This document shows positions 18,983 to 64,000 of a DNA stretch of 64,000 bases, one piece after another (the first letter of the stretch is position 1; each line of letters begins with the position of its first letter). The notes under the pieces were generated by a model. That model ran no database searches. It was not told where the DNA came from and worked only from the letters and a program-made list of their open reading frames with translations. The stretch lies in assembly GCA_964017195.1 (NCBI GenBank), contig OZ024892.1:18851389-18915388 (forward strand), read 5' to 3'. Origin of the DNA: Siderastrea radians. Taxonomy: Eukaryota; Cnidaria; Anthozoa; Scleractinia; Rhizangiidae. Both the position numbers and the translations under genes were made by a program.

Positions 18983-43705
<24,723 letters not shown>

Positions 43706-46570
43706 ATGGCTGAATCGAGTGAGCTCATTTAAATTTATAGGCATTGATCTGCAATCTTGTTTGCCTTAACTAATGGTATTAATTCTTATCCTTTGTAGAC
43801 CGAGGAAGAAAGCGGAAAAAGCCTCGGCTACTTTCCGAGGTGCTGGAAGAAGCAAAGGGTCTTATGGCGAGGACTGACACCGAACCCTCTCATCAATCTC
43901 GCTCTACAGAGTTTTCCAGGGTTGCCGTCCGAAAAACTAGAGCGCCGGCTACGTATCACTTCCGTAAAGATTCGTTGACAGGTCAACGGATAACACACTG
44001 TGAATACCGCCAAAGAAAAGTTAAAACAGCAGAAAAGGAACATGTGCATCTTGATGCTGAAGATGCCGCTGCTGTTTCTGGTATGTTATTTGAGAGGCCT
44101 CAGATTAATATTTAAGCTTATATAAGGTTAGAACTGACTTTAAATTCGACTTAAGTAGACCTGTATTGAAAGTTTTTGTGTGCCGTTTTGCACGCACCGT
44201 TGAACGGTTGTTGTAGTAAAAATTAAGGGTGTCTAAACGGACAAGTTGTTGTTGGTGTAGCCGCAGAATTTGGTGTAAGCTTTAATATATAGGGAAGAAA
44301 TTTTATCTTTTATGTGTTATTAACTTCAATTTACGCTGAAAGTTGTAAGTATATGCTTACTGGGAATTTCGATTTTTAAGTTAAGCATTATTTTGTAATA
44401 TTGTTTTTCAGTTTGAGAACTATTAGCTTTTGTTGTTTTACGTGTAAATGACCCCACAGGTAAAGTCTTGTTATTGTACTCTGTTGATAATTGAATAATT
44501 GTATTGACTGCTTGTCTTATTTATAGATGATGATGAGTATGGCCTTTCTGGTGTGGACGAAACAGGAACCTCAGCTGAATCAAGTCTGTACAATTGTACA
44601 CCACGTGTTTGACTTTTATTTTGCTTTCCAAATGAAGGGTCCAGTTGTTGTAGTTTTTTTTTTGTATTAATTTTTATTTTATTCTTTATTTTTATTTCTA
44701 TAGTTAATTTGGCATGTGTTTTGCAAGAAGCTAATGAAATATTAAAAGAATGGCGAGCTACCAAAGCACCAAAACAGAATTGGGGTCAACGCAGCACAGT
44801 CTTCAATGAAAGCTGGGCAGCTATCCGTGAAGGCCTGCTCAATACTTTAGTATCAGGGCATGCCATTGACAAGACTAGCTGCATGAAGTGTGCAGAAAAT
44901 GCAGCTGTTATTCACTGCTACAACTGCCATATTCATTCAAGATTGTGTTGGCACTGTGATCAGTTGGTCCATGCAACGCATCCATTTCATGATCGGTCTG
45001 CTTTGATAAATGGGTTTTTAAAGCCAATTCCACCTTCATTTTCTTTTGACTCTGATGGTAAATGGGTATCCATAGGTGTGTATAATCATACCATGTTGTT
45101 GTACTGATTTCAGTTGGTCAACTAACATTTTGAACTTCTATACTATACTGTTACTGTATTCATTACACAGTGTCAATGTCGGTGAAATAGTTGTTAATTT
45201 TTTTTCAATTCTCAATTTTTTTCCTTATTACTTTGTTGTGATTCAATTAACCTTGGTTCAATTTTTATTTTCCTTTCTTTTATACTCATTTATCGTACAT
45301 AACTATACACCGAAAAAAAAGGAAAATAAAAAATCGAACCAAAGATGAAATTGTCAACCACAACAACTACATTGCTCTTCATTTCTCAGATGTCTTCCCA
45401 TTTTCCTAATGTTAATAGGGAAACATGCTCTATTTCTTTTTATTAATATAACAATTCAGAAGCCTAGCTACATGTAAAATAGAGTGTTTTAGGAAAATGA
45501 AAACTTTCCAGTGGAGAATTACCCTTATATAGTTAACTCCTCATGAAAAGCCTTTTGACCTGTATCTTCCATTATGAAGAAAGCAATGCAAAAAACAAAG
45601 TTCATTTCCAATACTATATTGGACCTACAGTTCAACTATTTCACATTTTCTCTGATGTGGTATATGATTTTGCTGTGTGGAAACGTTTTTGAATTTTATC
45701 TGTGGATGAGTTGCAATTGTAACGATTTATTGTTTTACTGTTTGTGTTATTCTACCTTAGGGCAGGAAACATGCATTTAAACTCCATTGGTTATTCCCAT
45801 ACAAACTCATATATTTTAACGAAGTTTGATAATGTCTGCAAACATTTTGCACAAGTTAATGTAGGCACAAAACTAGACTTTATTTCCCCGGGTGACCTGT
45901 GGTTATACATAAGTTCACATACTTGGAACTTTCTTTCTTTTTTTTTTTTTTTTCAGATCACTTGTTACCATCATCCCATGTTTGCTTAGTATGCCCCACG
46001 TGTAACAGTCACGACATTCAAACAGTCGGAAAACAAAACCGCTGCATCGTGGTGACCCTTAGAGGCACGTTAATGATGAGATAATCCATTAAGTGAATGG
46101 TTTTTAATAAAAATGAAAACCATAACATTATGATTTCAATGGAGGTAATAGCTTTCCTCAGTCTAGTGACAAAATTAATGTGACAATCTGCCATTTATTT
46201 AAAATGATCAACTATAAGATTCTAGCACTTTTATTATCACAATATTTTTCTTTTCAAAATGTTTCCCTGTTTGTTGCACTCCTTGTACATTTGAAATTAC
46301 AAATTACTCACTGAATGGTCTTGTCTTTTAGGAAGGTATGATATGCACCATGTCCTTTTCAGATGCCTCCAGTGCCACAAAGATCTACCCACATCCAATC
46401 CGCTTATTGTTACACAACTTGGATTCTGGCCTGGAAGTATCAGCAATATGATCTATGTATTTGATCCGGAGGTTTTCCTACACTGGGATCTTTTTCAGAA
46501 GGAAAGCCCTGGTTCTTCTGAGAGATCTTTCTTGAAGTCCCTAGAACAGTTTTCCCTAAGGAAAGGAAGG
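43706..46570 (+). CDS. KDZ-protease gene, exons 1-6: N-terminus and zinc modules
   Basis: Exon 1 is only 13 nt (MAES plus one base) with donor GTGAGC. Exon 2 gives a basic RGRKRKKPRL start. Exon 4 encodes a B-box-like array (CMKC, CYNC, CWHCDQLVH, H), exon 5 CLVCPTC and exon 6 RCLQC, the cysteine clusters that usually precede KDZ cores. Exon 5 to exon 6 joins in frame only with a GC-AG intron (donor GCACGT at 46065), giving TLRGRYDMHHVLFRCLQC. In exon 3 the donor at 44584 or the one at 44596 both keep the frame. Confidence 0.8.
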
Positions 46571-49500
46571 GTATGCCAATTTTAATAATTATTGTTTAAT
46601 TAAATTTAGCCACTGACTAAAATGCCTGAATTTCCTTGTGGTGTTTGATATACAAAATATCAGGTTAAACTGTCTTGCTATACATATGTTAACAGTCCAA
46701 TGTAAACCATGGGTTACTGCTCAGTATAGCAATTTTAATATGTTTTGTGTAGATAACACTTTTGTCAATTAATGACGTATTTTATAGGTTGGAACAGTAA
46801 ATAGCAAAGCATTTAATAATGCCTTTAAAGAATGGAAATTTTGCCAGTACGAACTTGACCTTTTGCGGCACATGGATTGGATGCAGTGTCCACCTTGTGA
46901 AAAGGCTCAGCATTCTGTACACGTTGACGGCAATATGAAGCTCTATAGATTCAAGTCTGCTGGGATGTAAGTGCCTTTAAAGATACTGTGTATTCGAGAA
47001 ATATTTGCCAGCTTATTGTAAACCCTTCTCAGGCTAATTTTTTTTTGTATGCATATCACTGTCACATCAATTCTCATTTATAATGACGACGATGATGATG
47101 ATGATGATAATGATGATGATGATGAGGATGATGATGATGATGATGACACAAGTCTTATTTGAGGTAAATGTTAAGGCCAGGGTGCTATATCCATTGGACG
47201 TTAGGGCTATAACTCCAAAGAAAGAAAGTGTTATGAATTTAGATTGTCAGCATAGTTAATTATGATAACAGCACTTATTTTGAAGATTTTATCAATTTTG
47301 TTGAAAAGTTTGTACTAATCATTCACAAAGGTTCCAATCATTTCCACTGATTAGCATGCACAGGTGTATGAAACTATGGTCTCATATCTTTATTATTTAT
47401 GGTGTCTGTCATTGTTGTTTGCAGAAGACAAAGAGATTGTTACTATGGCAATGCATTTGTTGCCTCTAACAAAGATGTCGACCAACATATCCAGAAGGTC
47501 TATCAAGGTTCTAAGCACAGTGTATGTAAATGTTTGTGTTCAAATTTGTTATAAACAACTTGTTAGGTTATGCAGTCACTAAATCATCAAGTTCCACACT
47601 CACATTACAGCATCAGGTAGATAAAGGTGAGATCCCTAGACATAATTATCAAACATGTACATGTAATTGTGAATGTGGTTTGTATCTTACAAAAATTCTT
47701 AATTTTTAAGTTATAAATTGGATAGCTATAAGTTTCAAAATTTGACAGCTAGTTATGATTTATTTATATCAGACTAGGATATAATAAGTGCAATAGTGTG
47801 ACCTGATTGAATATTAAAAAACAATGTGTATACCTAGAACTATTAAATGTTAGGTTTGCTTTTTATAGTTATGGGAAATGGAAATTGTTTTTTTACTTAG
47901 CATTCATCATAGCATTTACATGCAAACTGTACAGGTGGACAAACACTTAGACCAGAACATGTGTGGTGATACCAGTTGGCGAGCTGCAGGCAATACCCTC
48001 CGCAAGAAGAAAAACCTCTGCGAAACAGGGCTAGAAATAGCTGGATGTCGCCATTCTGTTGCACAGAAAGCTGTCAACATGTTGTACGGTGAAATATATG
48101 GATACGCCCACTACTTGCAGACAGCATATTTCATTCCAAAGAAGGTTGAGTTCTTCTGGTATGATGTTGTCTGCAAGTTCTGGCCATGGCTTAAAAAGCA
48201 TGATGGTGATTCAGAAAAGAAGATGAAGCCTGCATTGTCTGTGATGCATGCCAAAGCTCATTCATGGTCATGCCAGGTAGTTTGGTTCCTTGACATTGAT
48301 TAATGTTTGTATTCTCTCTTTATATTGCTGTTGGTTGAAGTGGTGGCACTTGAGCTTTCTTTTTTTTTCAAAACATAATACAGGAAAAAATTGAGTAAGT
48401 TGGTTGACTTCACCTTGTAGCTGACTGTTCAGTTCAAATTTATGTTTTATAGTATGGAAATGATGATGTGAATTCAGCTGGCCAAAAGTGCCGGGAAGAA
48501 TGGGATGTCTTCAGACACAACTTTACCCAATGACTTCTGAACATTTTTTCACAAAACACTACTATTTCAAGCTGCTGTCAGTAGTCGTTTTCTGACCACT
48601 ACTTTGACGACTTGTAGCCAAACCTTTAAAAACTTTGTTTGGAACGTGCCAAGGAAACTTTCTTCCCTTCTTAGGACAATAGTTTTGCATCTCTTCCTGT
48701 TGTTATTTTTTCTTTGTTTTTTTTTAATTTTGTTTTGTTTTGTTTTTAACTGGACTTCATTTTGTTGGAACATTTTTCACAAACCACCAGAAAACATTTA
48801 GAATTGGCACTAATTATTGGTGTAACTGTGAAATTTTCAAGTTTACATGCTCTCTTGTGCTTATCTCTGTCCTAGTTATTGTAATAGCTCTCATTTGGGC
48901 ATGCCTTTGCATTCCTGCAAAATATGTTTATCAAGATATGTATATAAGTTTTGTGGTACATGGGCTGTGGTATCTGACACAGGCAGTTTAGGGCATAAGC
49001 AAAACTGCAAAAGTTCAGTTTTTTCATGGTTGCTTACACCATTTATGGCTTTGTGGCAGTAGATTGTCTAAATTGAGGCTTAGACATGCATTGCCCTGTG
49101 CCTTTACTTTTACTGCTTATGACGTTATTTAAATCATTTCATTGAACTTTAGAAATTAAATGGAGTATATATATATTTTTTATAATTATAGGTTGTTTGG
49201 GGTGGAAGGTGGCAGAATGGTGCTTCTGCAACCACTGGGGAGGAAGTTGAGCAAATAAATAGTCATTTCTCCCGGCTTGGTACCAGCACTAAGCACATGC
49301 TTCCTGAAGGTACATTTTTTTTATCTCATTGTTTTGTGATTACACAACAACAAATTGTGTGCACACTAGTTTTTGTTAGTTTGCACTGGCTGTCTTCAGT
49401 TCTTGGTGTTTCCATATCATAGTGAAACTTTGTGGTATATCCAAGAAGACTCATGTTTAAATGTTACTTATTTTGTGTCAATTCTTAACAATAAAATATT

Positions 49501-52500
49501 CACCTAACCATACCACTGTTATGACTTGATGCTTACAAATGTTCTATATCATTGGCACAAATGGTGTAGTTGTCTAAGTTCTTCACACTCATTATACGGC
49601 AATAGCCTTTTTTTCTGTTATCTTTTGCTATTCTATGGATTTCATCTTTTATTTTTTGCATTTCTATGAATTGTTGCTTATCTCGGCAAAATATAGGATA
49701 TTTAAAATAAATTATTTTATTAAATAACTTGTCTAGTTAATTTTTTTGAATTAAATTCTCAACTTCGGTAATAATTGCTGAGGTTTTTTTTGCCATATTT
49801 TTGCGGAGAAATTTTTTTCTTTTCATTTCAGAACCTTTTAAATGCCTGCAGGACCAGACATGACATTCAATTTAATTATAAGGCAAATAGCTGATTGCTG
49901 ATAGTCTGTTAGTGGCAACTGTTAAGAAAGCTACAAATGTCATAACCCCAAAATACACTGAAACACTGGTAGCTATCTTATCATTTCTTTTATCATTTCT
50001 ATTTCTATCTCCAAGATAGATATCGTCTTTAAGTGTTTGATGATTAAGGACGTCGCCTCCAAATGCTAAGGTGTGTTTTCAAGGTTAATGACTATGCGGG
50101 CAAAAAGGTCTTAGCAAGGGCTGTTGGAAGCCAAAAAGAAAACTGGAGGTAACCACGCGTTTGTCTGAGTTAATTAAGCAGCAATGTTATTAATTAGCTC
50201 TGGAATACACAGCAGTAATGGCATCTTCTTTCCACAACAAAGCTTTATTGTATCCGAAAATTGCGTGGCTACCCCCACATTTCTCTTTGGATTCTAAAAG
50301 GACTTGCTAAGATGACCCTTTTCTCTAATAGTCATGGTCCTTATAAACAACATGTCTCACTGACCATCCCGTGATTCACAAAACATATGCGCACTAAGAA
50401 AGGGAGGCACCGTGCTTAATTGCTCAATATTCTTGTGCTCGCACTTCGTCTTTCTTACACAGCACGTGAGGAGTTGCTTACAGAGCATGCCCTCCAGTGG
50501 AACCGGAAAAAGATAGAGAAGTTGCCGCGGACTTTAGCAGATAGATATTCGAAGGTAGATTTTTTTTCTAAGATCATGATAATCAAAGTGAAGTATGTAA
50601 TGTGACAGTTTTCAGTGGCGCCACTATTACGGTTTGCCTACATTGACGACCAAAACGTTAATGCATCATCTGTAATTTTTAATCTTTCACACTCTCAGAC
50701 AAAGATGCAACTTTCCAATGCAAGGAAGGACCTTTTGGACAATCTAGAACAGCTGCACGTTTCAGAGGATGTGTTGACCACCTGGAGGGAAGAGATATAC
50801 AACGCTGCTCTAGGTAAGAAGGTCAATGGTGAAACCGGATAAGGATACGTAAAGACTGCGGCTAATATTCGATAATTTCTTGGATGTTCCTCTCCCACAT
50901 AACAGTAGTAAACAGTGAATAATGCTTGTATTAACGGTAAAAGAAAGTGTGGTCGATTAATTACTTATTTTTTGGAAGTCTATACTTCCTTTCATCAGAG
51001 TATTATATTCACTAAAGTGAGTCTGATCATAATTTTGTTACAGAGAAAGAGAAGCAGAATTCTCAGTTACAAAAAAAACCAGTCATAACCCAGAAAGAAG
51101 AGGAGTTTTTGCTAAACCTTTTGCAAAGTGCAGATGTTTCTGCAAAGCATCACGTTTTGTGTGAAGCTGCCAAGCAGCTGTATGGTAAGCAGTATGACCA
51201 GATAGTCGCAAGATCTGCAACTGGAGTCGACAGTGCTACTCCTTTAGCTGGTGGTGGTGAAAAAATCCTGCATGAGAAAGCTGTTGCACATTTTCAAAAG
51301 CAGATGGAAAGTTACCACTACTCCATTTCACAGATGGTGTACAACATGGCAAAGTTGGGAGGTGAGACCTGACGATGGTTTAGCTTTAGTTGTTATACCA
51401 CACATATCCATTTTTCTTGTTATTTAACGACTGTATCCGTTTGACTTCTATGTGAAGTGCTTCTAGACTTTTCCTTTTTTTGCTCCCTTCCATTCCTACT
51501 TAGATTCAAGTCGACAGAGACAAAAGCTTCGAACCAAGGTGTCTCGTGAAAAGGATTCTTTAAAGACAGTGGTGTCGAGTTACAACGAACTGGTTGGTGA
51601 AAGCAACACAGTTATGGCAGAGAGTATAGAGAAAGGCGATTTCCCATGGAATTTAACTGATTATCCTCTTAATGACAGTGGTATGATTGAGTTCTAATTG
51701 CAGTCCTGCTTTGAAAATAGTCTATTTCCATACTCAGATGTGTTTTTGAGTTGCCCTCGACCAACATAAATGTGTGCTCGCACTTTGTTTGAAGGGTGTA
51801 ATATTTTATTTTATAAGCAGTCCCCTTAGGTACCAAGAGATCCGTAGTGGACAAAGAGATGGAGGTGAACCGCTTCAAAGAGGAGCTTATATTATTGAAG
51901 AAGGAGATGAATGGCTTTATTTCTTTCTACAAAGATGACGTTCTGCCATCGATACAAAAGCGGAAGACTGAATTACAGGCTTCTCTGATCGGTAATGGCC
52001 CTTAGTAGCCTTTAGGGACCTTTAGTGTCTTTAAGTTGACATTTCTATGAGTACAAAAGTATGCGCATTTTTTAAATTAACAAAATTTTTTTGTTGACCT
52101 CTACTGAGTGTAGAGAAATTTGACCCTCACCAGCTGTATTCAGTGCCCCTATCAACTGAACTGTATTGTTGCCGATATTATTTTACGATGCTCGGGATAG
52201 AATTTAGGTGTTACTTGTTATTATTCTCTCATTGTGCTTTAAGTAATTTTAACTATGCCGTCGACAACCGATGTAATATCTCTTATTAGCTATGTGTTTT
52301 TGCAAGCCTTGCTGTTACTCATTTCCTTTGCACACTGTTTCTTAGATATTTCTTCCCATGAAGTTGACTTGGAGAGTTGCACTAGTGGAAGTGAAATCGG
52401 ATCAGTGGACACAGTAGGACTTTTTTCATATTCTGCTTTGTCGCATGCTTTAATATGAAAAAAAAAATGCTTTTCTCTTAGATAGCTGCCTTCAAATCAA

Positions 52501-53836
52501 AAGTTAGGACAGCATGATTTTCCTATATTTTCCATTGTTATACACTGCGGCAAATCCGCCCGCCTAACCTTCTAATTGTAGAACAGACTATTGCTTGTTC
52601 CATTTTCATGCTATATAAATTGTTCCGTATTCATAATCTGCTGTCCATGGCTGCCAAAGATTCCAGTGATCAATTGACGATTTCCGTTTATGTATGCATA
52701 CCTTTATGTCGTTCTTTGTGAATTATTACATTTCTAACAAAATTGAAAACTTTCAGGTGTAACAGTTAAACAGCTTTTTATTAATAAAGGTCTAAACACA
52801 CAGAATATTGGAGTCTTGGCTGCGCCATGCCGATGAGACCCAACAGGTCGAAACAGCAAGCAATTTAGTTGTCTTTTGAATCTCTTCTCTCTTTGAGCAG
52901 GTTGTTAAAGGACAAATTTCGCTACTTGAGCAAGGGAAGGAGTTCGCCCTGAAGCAAATCGCAGCAGGTCTTACTGCATTTGCGTCTGTGCTATCAGACG
53001 AGTTGCATTCTTTTCGAGACTTGGCCATTGAAGCTACAGGCGACGCAGTAGAATTTGAAGATGACACCGAGCCTGGAGATGAGTCTGAGGCCGAGGATGA
53101 CGAGGACGACCATGACGATCAAGAAAGGATTCAGCTAGAGGACAAAGTTACAGAAGCCGCCCCAGACGATAACTTGGTAGCTTACTTTGACAGAATTGTC
53201 GACGAGCTAAATACTTTACCTTCATTAAATGAAGAACTTATAAACGAGGAAATATGTGCCTGGTATTTCCCTCCAGAAATAAGCCAGAGCACTTTCAATG
53301 GCCGCAATGGAAGCAACGCGTGCAGCATGATTTCTATTTTAGCTGCGTATTTTTTTGCAAGAAGTCGCCTAGAGATTCCAAAAGGAGGGGTACTTTCTTC
53401 CGAATTTGTAAAAACATTCTGCGGCTGTATCGAGTTAGGCAATAGAATGTATGATTTGTGTCGCCACGGTCTACCGAACCGGTATTTGTCAATTGAAGAA
53501 GCTGCCGCTCTGCTATCCTTCACAGATATGTCTACAGCTGGGCCCTTGCCTGTAAGACTGGAAGACGAGCACGAGTTGTCTACAGTTTGCGGCCAGTTAG
53601 GTACCCTGTCAGAAAATAGGACCTACTTTGCAAGTATTGTCATTGACGAGAAGACGTCTATTTTCATACTTTCTCCACCCCATGTTTTGTATATCGATTC
53701 CCATCTTCATGGAATTTATGGTGCTGTTGTAGTTAAAGGCACCTATTCTAACTTGAGTGACTTCTGTAAATTTGTCTGGAAATTGGAATCCCATGGAAAA
53801 AGTACTTACGGAAATCTGCATATTTTAATATTTTAA
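43706..53836 (+). CDS. KDZ transposase-like protein fused to a cysteine-protease-like domain (17 exons)
   Basis: Exons: 43706-43718, 43799-44080, 44527-44583, 44704-45075, 45957-46064, 46332-46570, 46788-46966, 47425-47521, 47935-48276, 49192-49309, 50463-50554, 50699-50813, 51044-51361, 51504-51680, 51821-51991, 52346-52413, 52901-53836. All phases agree and the sum is 3684 nt (1227 residues), which supports the model. Order: basic N-terminus; B-box-like and further Cys pairs (177-292); KDZ core with candidate acidic residues D404 (HVDGN), D526 (WYDVVC) and E580/E583 (GEEVEQ); helical region (about 600-910); acidic stretch (about 966-992); protease-like domain with C1057 and the D1182/H1184 pair. 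KDZ enzymes move DNA transposons. Whether this copy is a live transposon or a host gene is open. I find no terminal inverted repeats around it. The exon 3 donor and exon 15 acceptor each have an alternative. Confidence 0.85.
46788..49309 (+). CDS. KDZ-protease gene, exons 7-10: KDZ catalytic core
   Basis: Exon 7 has a CPPC pair and HVDGNMKLYRFKSAG (first Asp). Exon 9 has NLCETGLEIAGCRHS, the ETG...CRH signature of KDZ proteins, and FFWYDVVCKFWPW (second Asp) followed by MHAKAHSWSC. Exon 10 has GGRWQNGASATTGEEVEQIN (Glu) and SHFSRLGTSTKHMLPE. This D-D-E order is that of KDZ transposases with an RNase H-like fold. All three candidate acidic residues are present, so catalysis is plausible. Confidence 0.85.
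47083..47148. repeat. (GAT)n microsatellite in intron 7
   Basis: About 20 GAT/GAC units with few interruptions, within intron 7 of the KDZ-protease gene. Confidence 0.9.
48453..48533 (+). other. possible alternative terminal exon in intron 9
   Basis: A good acceptor (TTTTATAG) is followed by an in-phase frame YGNDDVNSAGQKCREEWDVF and RHNFTQ, then TGA. Used instead of exon 10, it would end the protein before the catalytic Glu. It may equally be a chance frame. Confidence 0.3.
50044..50419. mobile_element. TTAA-flanked MITE, family 1 copy B, in KDZ-protease intron 10
   Basis: The ends are TTAAGGACGTCGCCTCC and GGGAGGCACCGTGCTTAA. The interior shares GTAACCACGC, AAGCCAAAAAGAAAA and CTTGCTAAGAT with the copy at 20842-21243. 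Its right end lies 43 bp before exon 11, so the branch-point region is at or beside the insertion. Confidence 0.8.
50463..51991 (+). CDS. KDZ-protease gene, exons 11-15: helical region
   Basis: Exons 11-15 encode charged, helix-prone sequence typical of the region after a KDZ core: REELLTEHALQWNRKKIEKL, RKDLLDNLEQLHVSEDVLTT, HEKAVAHFQKQMESYHYSIS, RQRQKLRTKVSREKDSLKTV and NRFKEELILLKKEMNGFISF. Several heptad-like stretches suggest coiled coil. At exon 15 two acceptors 9 nt apart (exon from 51821 or 51830) are both in frame. Confidence 0.8.
52901..53836 (+). CDS. KDZ-protease gene, exon 17: acidic stretch and cysteine-protease-like domain
   Basis: A single large exon of 311 codons plus stop. 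It opens with a helix (VVKGQISLLEQGKEFALKQI), then an acidic run (EFEDDTEPGDESEAEDDEDD), then about 210 residues that look like a papain-fold cysteine peptidase. NGRNGSNACSMISILAAYFF offers the nucleophile Cys at a helix start with Asn before it, and VLYIDSHLHGIYGA offers an Asp-x-His pair on a strand, the usual layout in OTU, Ulp and viral deubiquitinase-type peptidases. It could act on ubiquitin or a ubiquitin-like tag, but the substrate is unknown. The stop is followed by AT-rich sequence. A further small 3' exon cannot be excluded. Confidence 0.75.
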   Translation, partial: VVKGQISLLEQGKEFALKQIAAGLTAFASVLSDELHSFRDLAIEATGDAVEFEDDTEPGDESEAEDDEDDHDDQERIQLEDKVTEAAPDDNLVAYFDRIVDELNTLPSLNEELINEEICAWYFPPEISQSTFNGRNGSNACSMISILAAYFFARSRLEIPKGGVLSSEFVKTFCGCIELGNRMYDLCRHGLPNRYLSIEEAAALLSFTDMSTAGPLPVRLEDEHELSTVCGQLGTLSENRTYFASIVIDEKTSIFILSPPHVLYIDSHLHGIYGAVVVKGTYSNLSDFCKFVWKLESHGKSTYGNLHILIF

Positions 53837-54420
53837 TAATTTCTCTTTTGGACAAGGAAGTTTTAGTAAAGGGGAGTTGGCTTGACCATTCTCGACTATA
53901 CTATCGGCCTATTTATTTATTTTTCATATTTCCAGTTGCCTCCTTTTCATTGAGGAAACGCGACTTGTTGATGAGGGGTATTTGCAACCCTGTATTAACT
54001 GAAGAGCCTTTGTCGTGGCTAATCAAACAGGCACAGCCAACTTCCATTTATCTTGAAACAACTTACCCTTAACTATTAGATAAATGTTGTGCTGACGTTG
54101 GAAACAATTTTGAAAGGTGTGTACGTAAAGTAACTGGCAAGGCAGTGAGTCGCTTGGTAAATGACATTTTAAGAAGTACCACATTAAATAAGTGGCAAGT
54201 CCTCGAAAGTGTTTTTCTGTGCAATATTTTTTTTTAATTTAAGCATTGCAGCAATGCCTCCTTACGTACTGTTTCAGTTTGACCTCTGCTTGCGAACACC
54301 TTTCGAAAACGCGGACACCCTCACCAAGGTCCTGGCAATTCCCCTTCTAAACTCCGCATTTATAACTTTCCCTTGGCGGACACCTCTCGTCGGCGGAGGA
54401 GGTGGGGGGGACAGGGGGGT
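53837..54420. other. 3' flank of the KDZ-protease gene
   Basis: No canonical AATAAA was found close to the stop; AAATAAG occurs at about 54184. A frame at 53848-54072 follows a TTTCCAG acceptor-like site but has no clear partner donor. Confidence 0.35.
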
Positions 54421-54655
54421 TTGAACCTCCCACTTCCCGTACCCTTTAATCCCGGTTCCCGCCCTGTATTTTTTGGCTCCCGCCCCTTTGCATTTTTTCG
54501 ATTGCGAAACATTGCGCAATGTTGCGTAATTTTCCCCTTTTTCTCCCGCTTCCCGCCACCTTGGGAATCCCGCTTCCCGCCCCCTCTTCTCCCGCCTCCC
54601 GTACACCTCCCGCCCCCTTTTCTCCCGGTCTCCCGCCCCCCTGTCCCCCCCCCAC
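54420..54655. repeat. C-rich low-complexity block, CTCCCGC-type units
   Basis: Repeated TCCCGC(C/T), CCCGCTTCCCGCC and CTCCCGCC units with almost no G outside CG. All reading frames give low-complexity protein on both strands, so the long frames here are artefacts. Confidence 0.75.
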
Positions 54656-54954
54656 GAGGAGGGCACCAATTTAAGGTCCGTAGAAGGTAAAATAACCTTG
54701 CGTAGGCGGAAAACACTAAAGATAAGGCCAAGCTGTCAGACAGTACGGTTGCCTTAGGGGAGACTTCCCAACGCTATTTTTAACCGACTCGCGACACAGA
54801 TGTGAGATGTTGCACCCCGGTGTTGCACACCATTCGCTAGTTTCTATTAACGCTGATACCTCTTTGCATGTATCCTTTCCAAATCGCAACCTTAGACTTA
54901 ATCCTAATCAAAATTTTGCTTAACTATGGCCATAATTTGCCTTAAAACTCCCCT

Positions 54955-57270
54955 GTCTGAAGACCGTCAAGATTAAACTCACCCCAGATTCACACAATTT
55001 TCATGCGTCGTGCCATACTTCTTATTCTAGCAAATAATCCCAGTTTTCACTAACTTGACGTAAACCTCTACTGTATGACGACCGTTACAGCTAAACTCGT
55101 CCCAGGTTCACACAATTTTCTTGTGCTTCCCCAAACTTGAAATGTTATGCCAAATAATCCCAGTTTTCGCTAATTTTGCCGTGAAACTGTACTGTTCGAA
55201 GACCGTCGAGACTAAACTTACCCCATATTAACACAGTTTTCATGTGTTGGCCCAAACTTGAGATGTTATGCCAAATAATCCCAGTTTTCCCTAATTTGCG
55301 GTGAAACTGTACTGTTCGAAGACCGTCGAGACTAAACTCACCCGATATGAACACAATTTTCATGTGTTGGCCCAAACTTGAGATGTTATGCCAAATAATC
55401 CCAGTTTTCCCTAATTTGCCGTGAAACTGTACTGTTCGAAGACCGTCGAGACTAAACTTACCCGATATTAATACAATTTTCATGTGTTGGCCCAAACTTG
55501 AGATGTTCTGCCAAATAATCCCAGTTTTCCCTAATTTGCCGTGAAACTGTACTGTTCGAAGACCGTCGAGACTAAACTTACCCGATATTAACACAATTTT
55601 CATGTGTTGGCCCAAACTTGAGATGTTATGCCAAATAATCCCAGTTTTCCCTAATTTGCCGTGAAACTGTACTGTTCGAAGACCGTCGAGACTAAACTTA
55701 CCCGATATTAACACAATTTTCATGTGTTGGCCCAAACTTGAGATGTTCTGCCAAATAATCCCAGTTTTCCCTAATTTGCGGTGAAACTGTACTGTTCGAA
55801 GACCGTCGAGACTAAACTTACCCGATATTAACACAATTTTCATGTGTTGGCCCAAACTTGAGATGTTATGCCAAATAATCCCAGTTTTCCCTAATTTGCC
55901 GTGAAACTGTACTGTTCGAAGACCGTCGAGACTAAACTCACCCGATATGAACACAATTTTCATGTGTTGGCCCAAACTTGAGATGTTATGCCAAATAATC
56001 CCAGTTTTCCCTAATTTGCCGTGAAACTGTACTGTTCGAAGACCGTCGAGACTAAACTTACCCGATATTAACACAATTTTCATGTGTTGGCCCAAACTTG
56101 AGATGTTCTGCCAAATAATCCCAGTTTTCCCTAATTTGCGGTGAAACTGTACTGTTCGAAGACCGTCGAGACTAAACTTACCCGATATTAGCACAATTTT
56201 CATGTGTTGGCCCAAACTTGAGATGTTCTGCCAAATAACCCCAGTTTTCTCTTATTTGCCGTGAAACTGTACTGTTCGAAGACCGTCGAGACTAAACTCA
56301 CCCGATATTAACACAATTTTCATGTGTTGGCCCAAACTTGAGATGTTATGCCAAATAATCCCAGTTTTCCCTAATTTGCCGTGAAACTGTACTGTTCGAA
56401 GACCGTCGAGACTAAACTTACCCGATATTAACACAATTTTCATGTGTTGGCCCAAACTTGAGATGTTCTGCCAAATAATCCCAGTTTTCCCTAATTTGCG
56501 GTGAAACTGTACTGTTCGAAGACCGTCGAGACTAAACTTACCCGATATTAGCACAATTTTCATGTGTTGGCCCAAACTTGAGATGTTCTGCCAAATAACC
56601 CCAGTTTTCTCTTATTTGCCGTGAAACTGTACTGTTCGAAGACCGTCGAGACTAAACTCACCCGATATTAACACAATTTTCATGTGTTGGCCCAAACTTG
56701 AGATGTTATGCCAAATAATCCCAGTTTTCCCTAATTTGCCGTGAAACTGTACTGTTCGAAGACCGTCGAGACTAAACTTACCCGATATTAACACAATTTT
56801 CATGTGTTGGCCCAAACTTGAGATGTTCTGCCAAATAATCCCAGTTTTCCCTAATTTGCCGTGAAACTGTACTGTTCGAAGACCGTCGAAACTAGACTTA
56901 CCCGATATTAGCACAATTTTCATGTGTTGGCCCAAACTTGAGATGTTCTGCCAAATAACCCCAGTTTTCTCTTATTTGCCGTGAAACTGTACTGTTCGAA
57001 GACCGTCGAGACTAAACTCACCCGATATTAACACAATTTTCATGTGTTGGCCCAAACTTGAGATGTTATGCCAAATAATCCCAGTTTTCCCTAATTTGCC
57101 GTGAAACTGTACTGTTCGAAGACCGTCGAGACTAAACTCACCCGATATGAACACAATTTTCATGTGTTGGCCCAAACTTGAGATGTTCTGCCAAATAATC
57201 CCAGTTTTCCCTAATTTGCCGTGAAACTGTACTGTTCGAAGACCGTCGAGACTAAACTCACCCTAGGTTC
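54955..57270. repeat. 120-bp satellite array with a 360-bp higher-order period
   Basis: About 19 tandem copies. Each 120-bp unit contains AGATGTT(A/C)TGCCAAATAA, CCCAGTTTTC, GTGAAACTGTACTGTTCGAA, GACCGTCGAGACTAAACT and ATTTTCATGTGTTGGCCC. The first two copies (54955-55200) are diverged. From 56161 three unit variants repeat in fixed order every 360 bp: the CCAAATAACCCC/TCTCTTATTTG variant occurs at 56221, 56581 and 56941. Earlier, blocks at 55261 and 55861 resemble each other over 600 bp. Because 120 is a multiple of 3, the minus strand shows long open frames with a 40-residue period. I read these as a by-product of the repeat. Confidence 0.95.
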
Positions 57271-57489
57271 ACACGGTCAGTCCACAAAAAAAGAAATACT
57301 ACTCATGCGCTAGTTGTTAAACGCGAGCATCATTAATTTCAATTTCCGTGTATGGTAGCAACGTTCCCCACCCATAGCTTGAGAACCCCACTCCAAGGTT
57401 TATTGCCAACCACATCTGACAAAGTCTAGATGGGGAATGCCACATCGTCTCATAACCTTGAAATTATAAAAAAAGACGTTTTCTGTTCT

Positions 57490-57860
57490 CATGACCTAAC
57501 CTTTTGACCTTTGACCTTGAAACTTGGTGGCCAAAATGTCCAAGATGCGTGCACTTAGGTCAAGAGGTACTTAATTCAAAGGTCAAAAGCCAAGGTCATG
57601 AAACATATTTTTCCATCTCCCGACCTTACATTTTGACCTTTGACCTTGTCGCACATGTATGTTAGGTGCCTTTCCGTTGTTAATAGTTTGTGAAATTTCC
57701 AAGGTCAGAGGTTAAAATCAAAGGTCAGAAGGGTGAAAAATATAGGTTTTTATATCCTCCTGACCTTTGATTATGACCTTTGACCTTCAAAGTTAATGTG
57801 GTGAATACTCTCAAACATGCAATTCATGTGTGAAAAGAACAAGGTCAAAGGTCAAAACCA
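57490..57860. repeat. cluster of AGGTCA/TGACCT half-sites
   Basis: At least eleven AGGTCA or TGACCT hexamers in 370 bp. Several form direct repeats with one spacer (TGACCTTTGACCT at about 57505, 57635 and 57775; AGGTCAAAGGTCA at 57842). They alternate in orientation, giving palindromic pairs about 60-100 bp apart. DR1 is the classic binding pattern of RXR, HNF4 and COUP-TF nuclear receptors. It may also be a decayed foldback repeat family. Confidence 0.65.
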
Positions 57861-58207
57861 AAGGCTATGACGGCCAGTAATATAAGCATATTTTTGGTGT
57901 TTGCATAATTAATGAGGCACTTTGTGTAGCCAATATCTTCAAATCGCTTTGCTAGAACGAGTTCAGGTTCACGTCGTCTTTACATCCATTCAAACACCAT
58001 TTGGTGCAATAGAAATATTGAAGTTTTTTTAAAGAACGTGCGCTATACAACTTTTCCCGTATGCATCGTTTGAAAAAAGGTCTTTTCTTACGATGTGTGG
58101 CAGTATGAACACTTCAAGTATTAGAAGAAGTGTTTATGTTTATGTATACTAGCTCACGAGGAAAAATTAAACGCTCTCGTAGCAAAAGTGAGTTTCAGAT
58201 GTTTTCA

Positions 58208-58255
58208 TTGATTTCCGTCCGCCATGTTGGTGTTCCTCGAAAGGACACCAAAATG
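58208..58255. repeat. short hairpin (CGCCATGTTGGTGT)
   Basis: CGCCATGTTGGTGT and ACACCAAAATGGCG form a 14-bp imperfect stem. No gene context. Confidence 0.4.
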
Positions 58256-58320
58256 GCGTCTGCAACAGGTGATAACTAAGATTGAAAATCGTTTGTGAAC
58301 ATAGAAAACTAATGAAGTGT

Positions 58321-58520
58321 GATGCTGGCCAAAGTATATTTCAGTATTCTACAGCCAGAGAGTGGAACAGCCTCCTAAATCCAATTAACACCCTAACGTT
58401 CAGTCGCCATTTTGAATTCTAGTAACTACTATAGTTATATTCATATCAGCGGCCATTTCACCGTGTCGGAAGACACATCTTTTTCAGTCTAAATGAAGCT
58501 TTTACTTACTTTACTTACAT
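58321..58520 (+). pseudogene. LINE ORF2 C-terminal remnant with 3' tail
   Basis: The frame ending at TAG (58420-58422) reads SIFQYSTAREWNSLLNPINT and LTFSRHFEF. It matches the AxxWNSLP...F...L region at the C-terminus of non-LTR retrotransposon ORF2, also seen in the larger LINE at about 26020. About 80 bp later comes CTTTTACTTACTTTACTTAC, a LINE-type 3' tail. It is a strongly 5'-truncated insertion. Confidence 0.7.
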
Positions 58521-58522
58521 TT

Positions 58523-60228
58523 TCTTCAAGTTGTCACAGTATAACTCGTTGAATTATTACACTCCATATAATTGAACGAAAAACAATTATACCCTCATTG
58601 CCCTATTTTATACGCGCACCGCACTGGGAGTTTTACGTTTTCACTCGGATTAGCTTGGCTCATAGTCAGTGGTGAAGAATCTAGAGACTTCTCCAGAGAG
58701 CTGTTTTAAAATGGGAGAGTTGCATGAACCTGAAAACACCATTAACTATGACATCGTCAAAAACTTCACACAAGTCTTTTGGGCAAATCAGACAACCATC
58801 GAGTGTAGCAAGGGAAAGATCATTTAATGATTATTGAAGTATTATTCAATACTTAACATGTATTATATAACAAGTAATAACAGAAACTCATAAGGTAATA
58901 ACTAATAAGTATTATTTAATTATTATTTAATACGTAATATTATTTAAGTGATCTAACAGTACTTCTTCTCAACAATATCACCTCCTCACAACATTCCTCA
59001 TTTGAGTTCGACATTCCATAACCACTTACAACAAAGGAAGTAAAAGATAAAAAGATCAAACAAAATAACGTATATACTAATACACCACACATGCATTAAG
59101 TATACAGTACCTATGTAGACACCGGTAACTAACAGATATAATCAAAACCAGACATTAAAAATAGAAATATTTCTGTGCACCGTGGCACTGACTAGTGTGT
59201 AGTGTAGGAAACGTTTAGCAAGAAGAGAACGTTCTACAAAAAGGCGCGTAAACCCGGGACATCAGTGTGTCTTTTACCGCGTTTTGGCCGCCAAGAAATA
59301 CTGAACTTATGAGTAAGACGACCTACAACTCAAAACACACTTACTGCGCCAGCTTAAACAAAACACACTGTAAGCCTGTCAGTTCTGATACGCTAAAATT
59401 TCTGAATTGACATCCGATGAAAAGAAAACTCTGTCCCTTGTTTCTTGTTTCGTACAAATTAAGTTCACTGTATGAAGTGAAAACCTCTATATTGACACTC
59501 ACGTTGCAGAGACCAAAAAAAAATTGAACCAAACCGAGACTTAACTAAACTTTAACCTCAAGATAATGCAAGCGATAAAAGTGACTGGATACAATACACT
59601 GTATGGCCTTGATATTGCCTGGTCTACAATGGGCACTTCCGCCACTTGAAAGCAACATATATGTACCATGAACAATCATTACTTCAAGGAGTCAAGTCGA
59701 ATATTTAAGAAACCACGACGACGATAGTAAAGAAAACGCCACAGCAGCACAATACTCGATTAGAGAAGCAACGGCTCTGCACGTGTGCCATACATTTTGG
59801 TACATATCTTTGCCGCTCTAAGCAAAACAATGATGAATTTTGCTTGCCCCTCATAGAGGCGAACGCAATTCGTACAAATTCACCTCCTGGATATCAAATG
59901 CACAGGACTACGAATGTGTGAACTTGCGTTGGGCGATGTTCATATTTTCGTCGTTGTCGTGGTTGGTTATCCCTATTTAGCCTGGGATTGTCTGGAGCTT
60001 CCATTTAAGGCAAAAAATTCCCAAAAAAAAGAAAGTGGCTGTCAAAATTTCCTTGCCATGAAAACGCGAAGTCAAAGTCGCTTGCAAAGTCACGCGAAAA
60101 AATGTCAGGTACATTGCGGGAAAAGTCGCAAAGGTATGTTGTGTTTTCCCTGGAATACTTACATAAGAGTTTACGAAGGTTCAGTGTCAGTCCCTCCACC
60201 CAGGCTTAATAAGGTCAAGGTCCCTATT
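58523..60228. other. intergenic, no gene seen
   Basis: An AT-rich low-complexity stretch with TTATTTAAT-type units lies at about 58825-58945. Open frames at 59341-59532 (minus) and 59914-60231 (plus) show no recognisable domain and lack splice context. Confidence 0.4.
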
Positions 60229-60381
60229 TAAACAATAGAGTTCTTCTGTCGAAGGCACTATCGTGTGATAGGTTGCCCGAGGAAATTTGATGTTCACAAC
60301 AAATATATGAAGTTCTAACATCAAATCTCCGTGGGACCCTATCAAACATAGGGCCTGAGACAGACGGACTCTATTGTTTTT
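60229..60381. repeat. foldback element with AAACAATAGAG ends
   Basis: AAACAATAGAGTTCTTCTGTC pairs imperfectly with GACAGACGGACTCTATTGTTT. A separate hairpin GCGGGCACTATTCGC with GATAGGCGCCCGC follows at 60419-60448. Non-coding. Confidence 0.5.
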
Positions 60382-60536
60382 ATTGTACAACGCTAACGTT
60401 TGAGCGAAATTGCCAAAAGCGGGCACTATTCGCTGATAGGCGCCCGCTGAGGAGAGACACACTATCTCGTCACGTGATCCATGACGCGATCAATGACAGC
60501 ACGCCAAAATTTAGCGTTGTACTATAATGTTACTTA

Positions 60537-60791
60537 TGCCCCTTTCACACCTTACTCAAATACGGAAATACCTAAACACGTTTAAAACCTGTTTAGTTAA
60601 TGTCGATTTAAAGTTGTTGTCTTCGTATAAATTCTTTATGATAATTTCGACTGCAAATTTATAACAGTGAAAGCAAAAACTAGAGCTTACTTGAATCCGA
60701 TACACAATTCAATCTTCCAGTTATCTGACACTGATTTTCATTTTTTTAAAGCTGGTTTAGGTAAACATGTTCAGTTGGTGTGAATGGGGCA
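60537..60791. mobile_element. 255-bp Harbinger-type MITE with TTA target-site duplication
   Basis: The ends TGCCCCTTTCACACC and GGTGTGAATGGGGCA are 15-bp inverted repeats with one mismatch. TTA flanks both sides (60534-60536 and 60792-60794). A three-base TTA/TAA duplication is typical of PIF/Harbinger elements. Inner arms share ACCTAAAC and GTTTAAA-like sequence. The right-hand duplication is the stop codon of the neighbouring minus-strand gene. Confidence 0.8.
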
Positions 60792-61045
60792 TTAGCTAAC
60801 CAAAGTGACCTTCGTCAAGTCTTTTCTCGGAAGAGCGAAAAACTGCCCGGTGCACAAGAAACGGTTTTCCTCGGGGTCACCGAGTACGACAGGTGCAGGA
60901 ATTCTCTCTTCCTTGACCCAGGTGACTTGGACGGCTTCGCACCCGAGTGGAACTGCCTTCCCATGGATGGTTTTGCGGTTCGACTGAAGGTATCCCACCG
61001 CCACGTTTTCATCCCGCTGCCTGTAGAAAACAACACTTGGCATAC
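60792..61045 (-). CDS. unrecognised gene, terminal exon
   Basis: Acceptor TTTTTTTCGCAG. The frame runs 84 codons to TAA. Its last codon is the target-site duplication of the adjacent MITE, so the present 3' UTR begins inside the MITE. Confidence 0.65.
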
Positions 61046-63455
61046 CTGCGAAAAAAAAGCAAGCACCATTTAATGATTTTATACCCTCTTCTAACTGCTT
61101 TAATTCAGTCGCCACTGGATTGCATGACAACAATCTTCGAGACTGTGCCATACAGAAAAAGGAATCAATGTAGCCCAATTGGTATTCCGAGTAACCCACA
61201 TATCGTATGTTCAATGGCAAGTGATATTGTTGCATCAGGAAAACAGTGATACAGAATGGTTACACTACAGTACACTAACGACGTTTTAGCCCTCCGAAAT
61301 AATCATGGGGTACAATAACATAGGATTCAAAGTATAACAGAACTTGCACCACTGAGGTGGGGTGACCAATGCACTAACAACCATTTACGCACTATTTCCC
61401 CTCATCGTATGGCTCGCGTGTTTGCTGTTTAAAATGTCAGTTGAATAATACTACACGCATAGAGACAGTGTATATACACACCAGTGGACTGTGGCACTGG
61501 TGTAAACTCAACCCTTGTTCCTCTTCGGGGTTGTATTGTGCCACTAACACCTGGTGACAAAAAAAGACATCTAATCAGTAATTCATAACATCAGTGTTGC
61601 TGCAACTTAAGGTAAATTTTGGTTCTCTGTCAAGAACCACTCGGTCCACACAAGTGCTCTTGCTGAAAACATAACAGAGCAACATCACATTACCTCTATT
61701 TTCACTTTCTTTATCTAAAATTCTTTTGGGAAACAGTTTGAATTGCATTTCTACTGTTTGACGGATCTGTTCATTTAGCTAACCCTACAAGATGTTTTAT
61801 TTGCTTCTAAAGCCCCAGCATACCCTTAACTATACATATGGGATTGAAAAAGAGACAAGTTTCCTCTAATTATAGCTGGTCTCAAGTCAAAGAATAAAAT
61901 ACTGTATGAAACAGGACAATATCTATTTGTATCAAAATGATACAATGGAAGGATCATCATCATTTTAGGCGTGGCCATGGAAGGGTGATGCCTTGTAGTT
62001 CGTTGGAATTTTTACTTGGTTTATGACAATGCCGGAAAAGGAGATCTTACCACATGCTATTGATGTAGTCGATGGTGCTGTTGTTGTTGTTGCCACGGTC
62101 TCTGAAGTATTTTCTCCAGGAGAAATGCTTTCGTTTTCTGTAAAGACAAACTCATTTAACACACAGAATCTGCTGCTTGGGCACTTTGTTAAAATATCTT
62201 CAATTGTACACTACAGGACTGCCCAGCGATTAGTCCCTGTGCAATGCATGTCACACTTATGCTGTCATTCTCAAACACATACATGCTAATAGTCAAGAGG
62301 GCATTATTATTCTTTGCTTTGCATAGGCCGTGGCAAGGGAAGGGTGGTGCCTTAAAATTCAATGTATTTTCCTTGGTTTCCTTACCACAAGCTATTGGTG
62401 TAGTTGATGGTGTTGTTGTTGTTTTCTCGGGAGTACCATCACCAGGAGGAATGCTTTCATTTCCTGTAAAAAAAAAAACATTTAACACACAGAAACTGCT
62501 GCTTGGGCTCCTTGTTAAAATATCTTCAATTGTACACTACGGGACTGTGCGCACTTGACACATACATACTAATAGTCAAGAAGCATTATTATTGTTTGCT
62601 AAGCACACATATTTCATGAACGACAAGTCGATGACATATCCAGCACTTTCTTGGTTGAAATACCTTTTATAACAGCCCATTAGGACAACACACGACTACA
62701 TTTCATGTAACAAGTATGCGAACAGAAGACCTCAAACATGTCAAGATATTTTCTGCCTGTGTCCGTTTTTCCAAAAACAATCAAGTCATTGCCTGTGAAA
62801 ACACTTCATTTTAATTATGACCTAAAGGAGAACACAATGTTCACTGTTATGAGATCATTTTAACAGAATAGAGGTAGCTTATACACACCACTCGATGTTG
62901 TTGTTTTTGTCTCTGAAGAGACTTCTTCATCCTGACACTGAGAAGCACTGTTTTCATTTCCTGTAAAGACAAACTCATTTAACACACAGAATCTGCTGCT
63001 TGGGCTACTCATAAAAAGATCTTCAATTTTATACTACAGGACAGGACCAAAAATGCTAAGACATATTACATGCTAATAGTCAAGAGGGCATTATAATTTT
63101 TGGTTAAGCAAACACATTTCACGAATGACAAGTCAATGAAATATTCAGCACTTTATTGGTTTAAATACCTTTTATAACAGCACGTTTGGACAACATACGG
63201 TTTTACTTGATTCTATGAATGGCTTTTAGCTTATCTGACCACTTTGTATGAAAAAAGTATGTTAAAGCAATTACCATATTTTGTGCAAAAGGCTTCGAAC
63301 ATATCAAGAAAGGTCTTCCCGATGTCTGTTTTGCCAGAAACAAATAGTTCTCCCAGTCCAGGTGTTCCATAGGCAAAATAGGAAACACCATTGACATGTT
63401 TCCTTTTGTATAGAACCACAACGTCATACCCGTTGTGATGATTGAGTGTGTCAGC
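60792..63455 (-). CDS. unrecognised gene, last five exons (5' end not seen)
   Basis: The minus-strand exons in order are 63275-63455, 62889-62960, 62386-62463, 62051-62137 and 60792-61045 (stop TAA at 60794-60792). Phases join cleanly, 1-1 for the three small exons. The first exon encodes HNGYDVVVLYKRKHVNGVSY, FAYGTPGLGELFVSGKTDIG and KTFLDMFEAFCTKYG. The middle three encode Thr/Ser/Pro-rich linkers (ETKTTTSS, EKTTTTPSTTPIAC, VATTTTAPSTTSIAC). The last encodes GMPSVVFYRQRDENVAVGYL through FLCTGQFFALPRKDLTKVTL. I do not recognise the family. The Thr-rich linkers could be O-glycosylated if the protein is secreted or membrane-bound, but no signal peptide or membrane segment is visible in this part. 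Confidence 0.65.
61046..62050. other. intron of the unrecognised gene
   Basis: No further exon is evident. A palindromic patch (CCAGTGGACTGTGGCACTGG) lies at about 61482-61501. Confidence 0.4.
62051..63010 (-). repeat. tandemly duplicated exon-plus-intron units
   Basis: Three units, each a Thr-rich exon (62051-62137, 62386-62463, 62889-62960) preceded on the minus strand by the same intron sequence. The plus-strand blocks CTGTAAAGACAAACTCATTT, AACACACAGAATCTGCTGCT, TGGGC and ATCTTCAATTGTACACTAC recur after each exon, with changes. Unit spacing is about 335 and 500 bp. All three exons are phase 1-1, so duplication keeps the frame. Confidence 0.75.
63275..63455 (-). CDS. unrecognised gene, most upstream visible exon
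   Basis: Acceptor TTCTTGTAG, donor GTAATTGC. Begins in phase 0 and ends in phase 1. The 5' exons lie either in the remaining 545 bp without a clear signal or beyond the window. Confidence 0.6.
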
Positions 63456-64000
63456 CTACAAGAAAACAAAGAAAAAGAAAAAAAATGGAAACAATGAAGG
63501 GGCATTATATCAAAGATAATCTCCAGTGAAAACCAGTAAGGAAATGGGAAAGTGACACATTCAAGGGGGGAGATGAAATATAATACTGTACCAGAATGTT
63601 ATAACTGTTGCATCTGTGCATGAAATCTAAAATGTGACTAGTCAAATGAAAGCTACTAAGCAGTACTTTGTTGCGGTGCTGTTTATTATGTTGTACAAGA
63701 TGGCTCTAACTTTTGAGTGCATGGAAGAATTCCTAAAGTGCAACCATTCCAGTGAAAGCTGCTTAGCTCTACTTCTAAGTGGTGCTGCAAAATCCACAAA
63801 AAAAAGTTGAAGCAAAAAAGTCAGAAATACTCTCTGCAAAAATTTGCTACACTGTAAAAGGTATATGCAAACGTCAACTTTAACATGTAAATTATGTAAA
63901 ATTATGTTGGCACCCATTGCTCATGTTGTTCACCTGTATTTCGATTACACATACTCAAAACTGAGAATATTATAATTCTAATGTTGATGCTGTCTTTTCT
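63456..64000. other. probable intron at the window edge
   Basis: No exon with both splice sites could be supported. A frame on the minus strand (63642-63917) follows a TTTTGCAG site but ends in a stop without joining the next exon. Confidence 0.35.

Follow-up and report, generated by a model that had tools for sequence, protein, structure and literature searches.

The window, i.e. the whole stretch of 64,000 nucleotides of Siderastrea radians DNA analyzed here, corresponds to C6:18851389-18915388 of the 804.8-Mb assembly that served for the searches of the coral's own genome. Its plus strand harbors a gene that extends from an ATG at 43706 to the end of a stop codon at 53836 and encodes a transposase of the KDZ (Kyakuja-Dileera-Zisupton) type, followed in the same predicted frame by a C-terminal domain that resembles viral tegument deubiquitinases (VTD). 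The gene and the putative transposable element that surrounds it comprise the following features (window coordinates):

43547..43553, no strand: left target-site duplication (TSD) CGTTCGT; right copy at 67914-67920, beyond the window (L021)
43554..43658, plus strand: left terminal inverted repeat (TIR), 105 bp, starting with 5'-CAACATG; partner at 67809-67913, beyond the window (L021:3809-3913), 100/105 identical
43554..64000, plus strand: KDZ-VTD element, part inside the window; whole element 43554-67913, 24,360 bp
43706..43718, plus strand: exon 1, start codon
43799..44080, plus strand: exon 2
44527..44583, plus strand: exon 3
44704..45075, plus strand: exon 4, B-box-like Cys/His module (aa 177-215)
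45957..46068, plus strand: exon 5, beginning of CxC3
46336..46570, plus strand: exon 6, remainder of CxC3
46788..46966, plus strand: exon 7, beginning of the KDZ core, D404
47425..47521, plus strand: exon 8, KDZ core
47935..48276, plus strand: exon 9, KDZ core, D526
49192..49309, plus strand: exon 10, KDZ core, E580
50463..50554, plus strand: exon 11, last part of the KDZ match, followed by helical region
50699..50813, plus strand: exon 12, helical region
51044..51361, plus strand: exon 13, helical region
51504..51680, plus strand: exon 14, helical region
51821..51991, plus strand: exon 15, helical region
52346..52413, plus strand: exon 16
52901..53836, plus strand: exon 17, C-terminal helical tail of KDZ, acidic linker, VTD (about 53210-53833; C1057, E1116, D1182, H1184), stop codon
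54933..57263, no strand: tandem array of about 19 copies of a 120-bp unit, within the element and inside the block common to the C5 copies
63275..63455, minus strand: tentative exon of a possible second gene in the right arm; the frame is open, has splice-like borders and is 98.6% conserved in C5 copy A

The exon-by-exon rebuild joined 17 exons across 16 GT..AG introns into 3684 nt, or 1227 codons, with no internal stop, which reproduces the uninterrupted frame that an earlier note on this DNA had proposed. At the junction of exons 5 and 6 the acceptor ends at 46335, and the resulting LRG-TYDM aligns without gaps to LNG-RYDL of Nematostella. The rebuilt frame goes beyond chance: over 96-100% of its length, the segment of residues 240-620 exhibits 60-62% identity to four entries of Nematostella, which derive from three named loci. 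The C-termini of these entries in turn match residues 1015-1227 at 42% identity. The nearest named relatives of the protein are anthozoan (Nematostella, octocorals, stony corals), and the 17 exons are presumably spliced in vivo as modelled. Intron 10 contains an inverted-arm repeat (50044-50333) with 73% identity to 20842-21132, apparently an older MITE-like insertion within the gene.

The domain order given in the earlier note, with cysteine-rich zinc modules, a KDZ core carrying three acidic residues, a helical region and a papain-fold domain with Cys and Asp-x-His, was recovered in full. The zinc modules are a B-box-like cysteine module at aa 177-215, which was read off the sequence, and a CxC3 domain at aa 250-354; for P0126, a related KDZ protein from an octocoral, the B-box match remains below the cut-off. 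The KDZ transposase domain (aa 400-616) scores 103 bits against a Pfam cut-off of 26.6 (E 2.5e-29), and its residues D404, D526 and E580, without substitution in the non-gap cells of 51 alignment rows, are probably the catalytic ones. Profile searches of both halves, as suggested earlier, thus placed the KDZ half above the Pfam cut-off and left the VTD half without a match: the translation of exon 17 hits no Pfam family, no VTD-type family is present among the best 25 of 37 Pfam families for its relatives, and none of the VTDs in the PDB was matched at E <= 10 by a C-domain profile of 81 rows. A confident predicted model of the C-terminal domain adopts the papain-like VTD fold, and the catalytic positions C1057, D1182 and H1184 are kept in 80/81, 80/81 and 79/81 rows, respectively. 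The fusion of an intact multi-exon KDZ transposase with a papain-fold domain of the ubiquitin-protease type (C76-like, among the peptidase types named in the earlier note) is supported; the domain would be expected to act as a deubiquitinase. We consider it rather unlikely that the domain belongs to a different class of papain-fold proteases (YopT/AvrPphB-like, UFSP-like, SUMO or UFM1 proteases) or binds ubiquitin without being catalytically active.

The location of the VTD wholly within the last exon, together with exon joins taken solely from genomic sequence, would be compatible with two adjacent genes that were wrongly joined, namely one for a KDZ transposase that stops short of exon 17 and an independent one for the VTD. 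However, exon 17 alone encodes the last KDZ helical segment and the VTD in one frame. The profile of this tail matches 13 of the 50 proteins of the KDZ set at E <= 1e-3, with an implausible position in one of them (P0136); several of the matched proteins, e.g. P0127, P0128, P0130 and P0133, have no VTD; the octocoral protein P0128 ends in an acidic linker immediately past the tail segment. All 120 listed VTD proteins have the C-domain, and 89 of them also contain the tail in one open frame. Moreover, the fusion is found in gene models of two other genera, namely in five Nematostella entries and one Desmophyllum entry, which makes six VTD-bearing members among the 50 KDZ proteins. Against this evidence the two-gene explanation is extremely improbable, and we treat the KDZ-VTD product as a single protein.

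The KDZ tree, which comprises 25 of 51 proteins and contains no labelled reference rows for Kyakuja, Dileera or Zisupton, unites the window protein with Nematostella; their group is well supported and also includes VTD-less octocoral models. Desmophyllum is placed with VTD-less Acropora models. The same two groups are separated with moderate support (85/94 and 84/80) in a VTD tree of 21 chosen rows. The agreement of the two trees suits an old fusion with co-diverging domains, whose VTD may have been lost or missed in some gene models. With its occurrence in Nematostella and Desmophyllum, the fusion gives no support to the earlier suggestion of a "very young" element.

Comparison of the window (C6) with C5 revealed DNA identity that starts abruptly at 43554 and continues beyond both the gene and the end of the window as far as about 67904. 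Both ends of this block are inverted repeats of 105 bp with 5 mismatches (5'-CAACATG...CATGTTG-3'). The C6 copy, 24,360 bp in length, is located between perfect 7-bp duplications (CGTTCGT), and C5 copy A, with 24,714 bp, possesses its own 7-bp duplication (TAGATCC); its outermost 9 bp are unpaired. An ordinary segmental duplication as the source of the long common block was rejected in view of inverted-repeat ends with locus-specific 7-bp duplications. The statement that no TIRs are visible holds inside the window, where only the left TIR is located, but not for the whole element, whose right TIR ends at 67913. The target duplication measures 7 bp at both copies, not the 8 bp named in the earlier note. 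A TIR/TSD scan of 38000-43705 against 53837-59000 gave nothing convincing (two 6-base matches, GAAAAA and CCCCCC, versus 0.2 expected), since the true right end lies beyond the scanned part.

About 250 bp of the window copy (54403-54655) are absent from C5 copies A and B and probably represent a later insertion. A minus-strand frame just past the window, within 64086-64301, shows weak similarity to a zinc ribbon (Pfam DZR_2, E 1.4e-4, below the cut-off), and together with the minus-strand frame at 63275-63455 it possibly belongs to a second transposon-borne gene. Outside the element, an apparently intact, non-autonomous element of about 890 bp (41862-42753) is located about 950 bp before the gene; its 127-nt TIR arms are 91% complementary (TAGACTGCGAG..CTCGCAGTCTA), and a 9-10 bp direct repeat (GCTTATTAT/T) is present on its two sides. 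It resembles a MULE-like insertion. A frameshifted reverse transcriptase remnant is present at 24642-26138, where two of three tested frames match RVT_1 of Pfam.

Four copies of the window family were found in the genome, i.e. the window copy and three at C5:25.61-25.68 Mb, and the next match in the VTD search is only 39% identical. The window copy alone is intact; the reported lack of decay therefore applies to this copy and not to its three C5 paralogues, all of which are broken. Common to them are a stop within exon 2, indels that affect exons 6, 7, 13 and 14, and an excess of about 160 bases where exon 4 begins, so that the aligned exon lacks a preceding AG; copy C is also devoid of exons 16-17. 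Based on their mutual identity of ~99% and their partly inverted arrangement, the three look like local duplicates of one insertion. The surrounding region (C5:25610000-25690000) is a cluster of direct and inverted duplications, likewise ~99% identical. Between the window and C5 copies A and B the introns differ at 146/6372 and 139/6382 positions (2.2-2.3%) and the exons at 50/3681 and 57/3681 (1.4-1.6%). The corresponding ratios of nonsynonymous to synonymous differences are 37:16 and 42:18, or about 0.75 of the neutral expectation, where totals of 53 and 60 instead of 50 and 57 reflect different alignments. These ratios weakly indicate constraint on the window lineage, given that decay is under way in the C5 lineage; copies A and B are not independent of each other. 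Nearest paralogues that are ~2.2% diverged in introns and already broken likewise give no support to a very young element.

A single intact copy among four, an exon divergence below that of the introns, and apparent older MITE-type insertions in introns could also be understood if a former KDZ-VTD transposase had been domesticated, i.e. kept intact for a cellular role while its copies became pseudogenes. Yet the intact copy still carries its 105-bp TIRs and a perfect 7-bp duplication, so that the absence of flanking TIRs and TSD anticipated for a host gene was not observed, and the C5 copy has a duplication of its own. In addition, Nematostella harbors near-identical copies on different contigs (P0002 and P0003 differ at 6/1048 residues), and a lone intact copy may be due to chance given that the C5 trio resembles local inverted duplications of one insertion. 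Domestication thus has a low probability. The ends and duplications document that the unit was inserted in the past at two sites (C6 and C5 copy A) and moved as an element, which favors a transposable element over a domesticated host gene; of the two options in the earlier note, a young autonomous element or a domesticated gene, the element was retained without the attribute "very young". It is plausible that the window element is autonomous, and it may still be mobile.

The search with the C-domain yielded 95 matches in the coral's own genome, and among the 30 that were examined three loci beyond the window family (L026, L028, L029) combine tail and VTD within a single frame, and two others (L027, L030) have the tail in a frame next to the VTD frame. 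L026, L028 and L029, which are located about 3.3 kb from matches to KDZ, represent a second KDZ-VTD family: its copies on C10 and C1 are 98.4% identical over 12,980 bp and share the left end CAACACG, and the third copy is without the 5' part. No inverted partner of the left end was found within 15.2 kb; the 7-mer next to this end recurs once, inside the region still common to both copies, and one tblastn match contains a stop. Of five proteins tried, the one closest to this family is an Acropora model annotated without a VTD, yet the family itself has the VTD exon. Three further KDZ loci (L018-L020) lack a VTD within the 9 kb examined per locus.

In some other VTD matches the frame contains a RING-like pattern of cysteines further upstream (Pfam zf-RING_5, E 0.021, below the cut-off). 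Six separate, uninterrupted frames of 418 residues on C1, C4 and C5 (L041-L045, L047) combine this pattern with a VTD, so that a ligase-like and a deubiquitinase-like domain possibly reside in one multicopy gene. At L032 (C8:43680904-43681428) the VTD terminates an open frame of 705 residues, whose upstream part appears by eye to be hydrophobic and membrane-like. The window family, the L026-type loci and the RING-like frames show that VTDs occur in several multicopy gene types of this genome, as Erven et al. state in general terms for cnidarians. An apparently separate pairing is found in the jellyfish Rhopilema esculentum, where a KDZ protein (P0169) ends in an Ulp1-type C48 protease (Pfam E 4.2e-7). 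In viral contigs, 11 matches to one short pattern were obtained, but tblastn confirmed none of them.

The element resembles known KDZ transposons in its KDZ and CxC3 domains, the multi-exon gene and the conserved acidic residues, but differs in the additional deubiquitinase-like domain and in its length of 24 kb. The 7-bp duplication at both copies deviates from the 8 bp of Zisupton (Kojima 2025; PMC12730594). It agrees, as do the 5'-CA..TG-3' termini, with two Kyakuja families described in the same paper, which in contrast to the window element are listed there without TIRs. The VTD shares the Cys and Asp-x-His residues, and in prediction the fold, with the large tegument deubiquitinases of herpesviruses (peptidase C76) and with Helitron VTDs such as zebrafish DrT1-VTD2 (8ADD). 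Helitrons also provide a transposon setting (PMC9741609), but their VTDs are fused to a Rep-helicase instead of a KDZ transposase, and the Pfam and PDB searches described above gave no profile-level match of the present domain to known VTDs. One Discussion sentence of PMC9741609 refers to VTD genes of cnidarians that are joined with "several transposon-associated domains", and these very likely include the KDZ-VTD architecture; the word KDZ has no occurrence in the main text of that paper, nor are element ends, duplications or gene structures of the cnidarian cases found in its text. Transposons with VTDs are known, as are KDZ transposons and VTD deubiquitinases in general, and cnidarian fusions of VTDs with transposon domains have been mentioned. 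As far as the searched open-licence literature without supplements shows, the named KDZ-VTD pairing with its gene structure, TIRs and duplications is new.

Taken together, the locus is probably a large transposon of the KDZ superfamily, whose single protein carries a C-terminal VTD that would strip ubiquitin and thereby allow the transposase to escape the proteasome. In the proposed mechanism the zinc modules (B-box-like, CxC3) probably serve for binding to chromatin or to the ends of the transposon, and the RNase-H-like KDZ core (D404, D526, E580) would cut and join DNA. The helical region and the acidic linker would lead to the deubiquitinase-like domain, which most likely removes ubiquitin, by analogy in the form of K48-type chains. 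Its substrate may be the transposase itself or proteins at the transposition complex, and the deubiquitinated transposase would persist long enough to move the element. In an extension of Erven et al., a VTD in the transposase's own chain suggests that the transposon may protect itself from destruction by the cell. It is plausible that KDZ elements are repeatedly linked to ubiquitin-type chemistry, in view of the jellyfish KDZ-C48 protein and the F-box/CxC7 proteins of fish Zisupton elements (PMC12062965), which are likewise linked to the ubiquitin system, although via an F-box (a ubiquitin ligase adaptor) instead of a deubiquitinase-like domain.

The KDZ-VTD element adds an animal KDZ element with defined ends and represents, besides Helitrons, a second well-delimited transposon class hosting the VTD family, from which the herpesvirus tegument deubiquitinases may stem. 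A transposase and a deubiquitinase-like domain in one chain provide a testable pairing for the questions of whether hosts restrain transposases via ubiquitin and whether transposons counter this by a deubiquitinase of their own. More tentatively, a self-stabilizing cnidarian KDZ transposase would unite DNA cutting and ubiquitin escape in one molecule, and repeated capture of ubiquitin/SUMO enzymes (VTD in Anthozoa, Ulp1 in the jellyfish, multicopy genes with RING-like pattern and VTD) would make transposons a general reservoir for viral tegument deubiquitinases.
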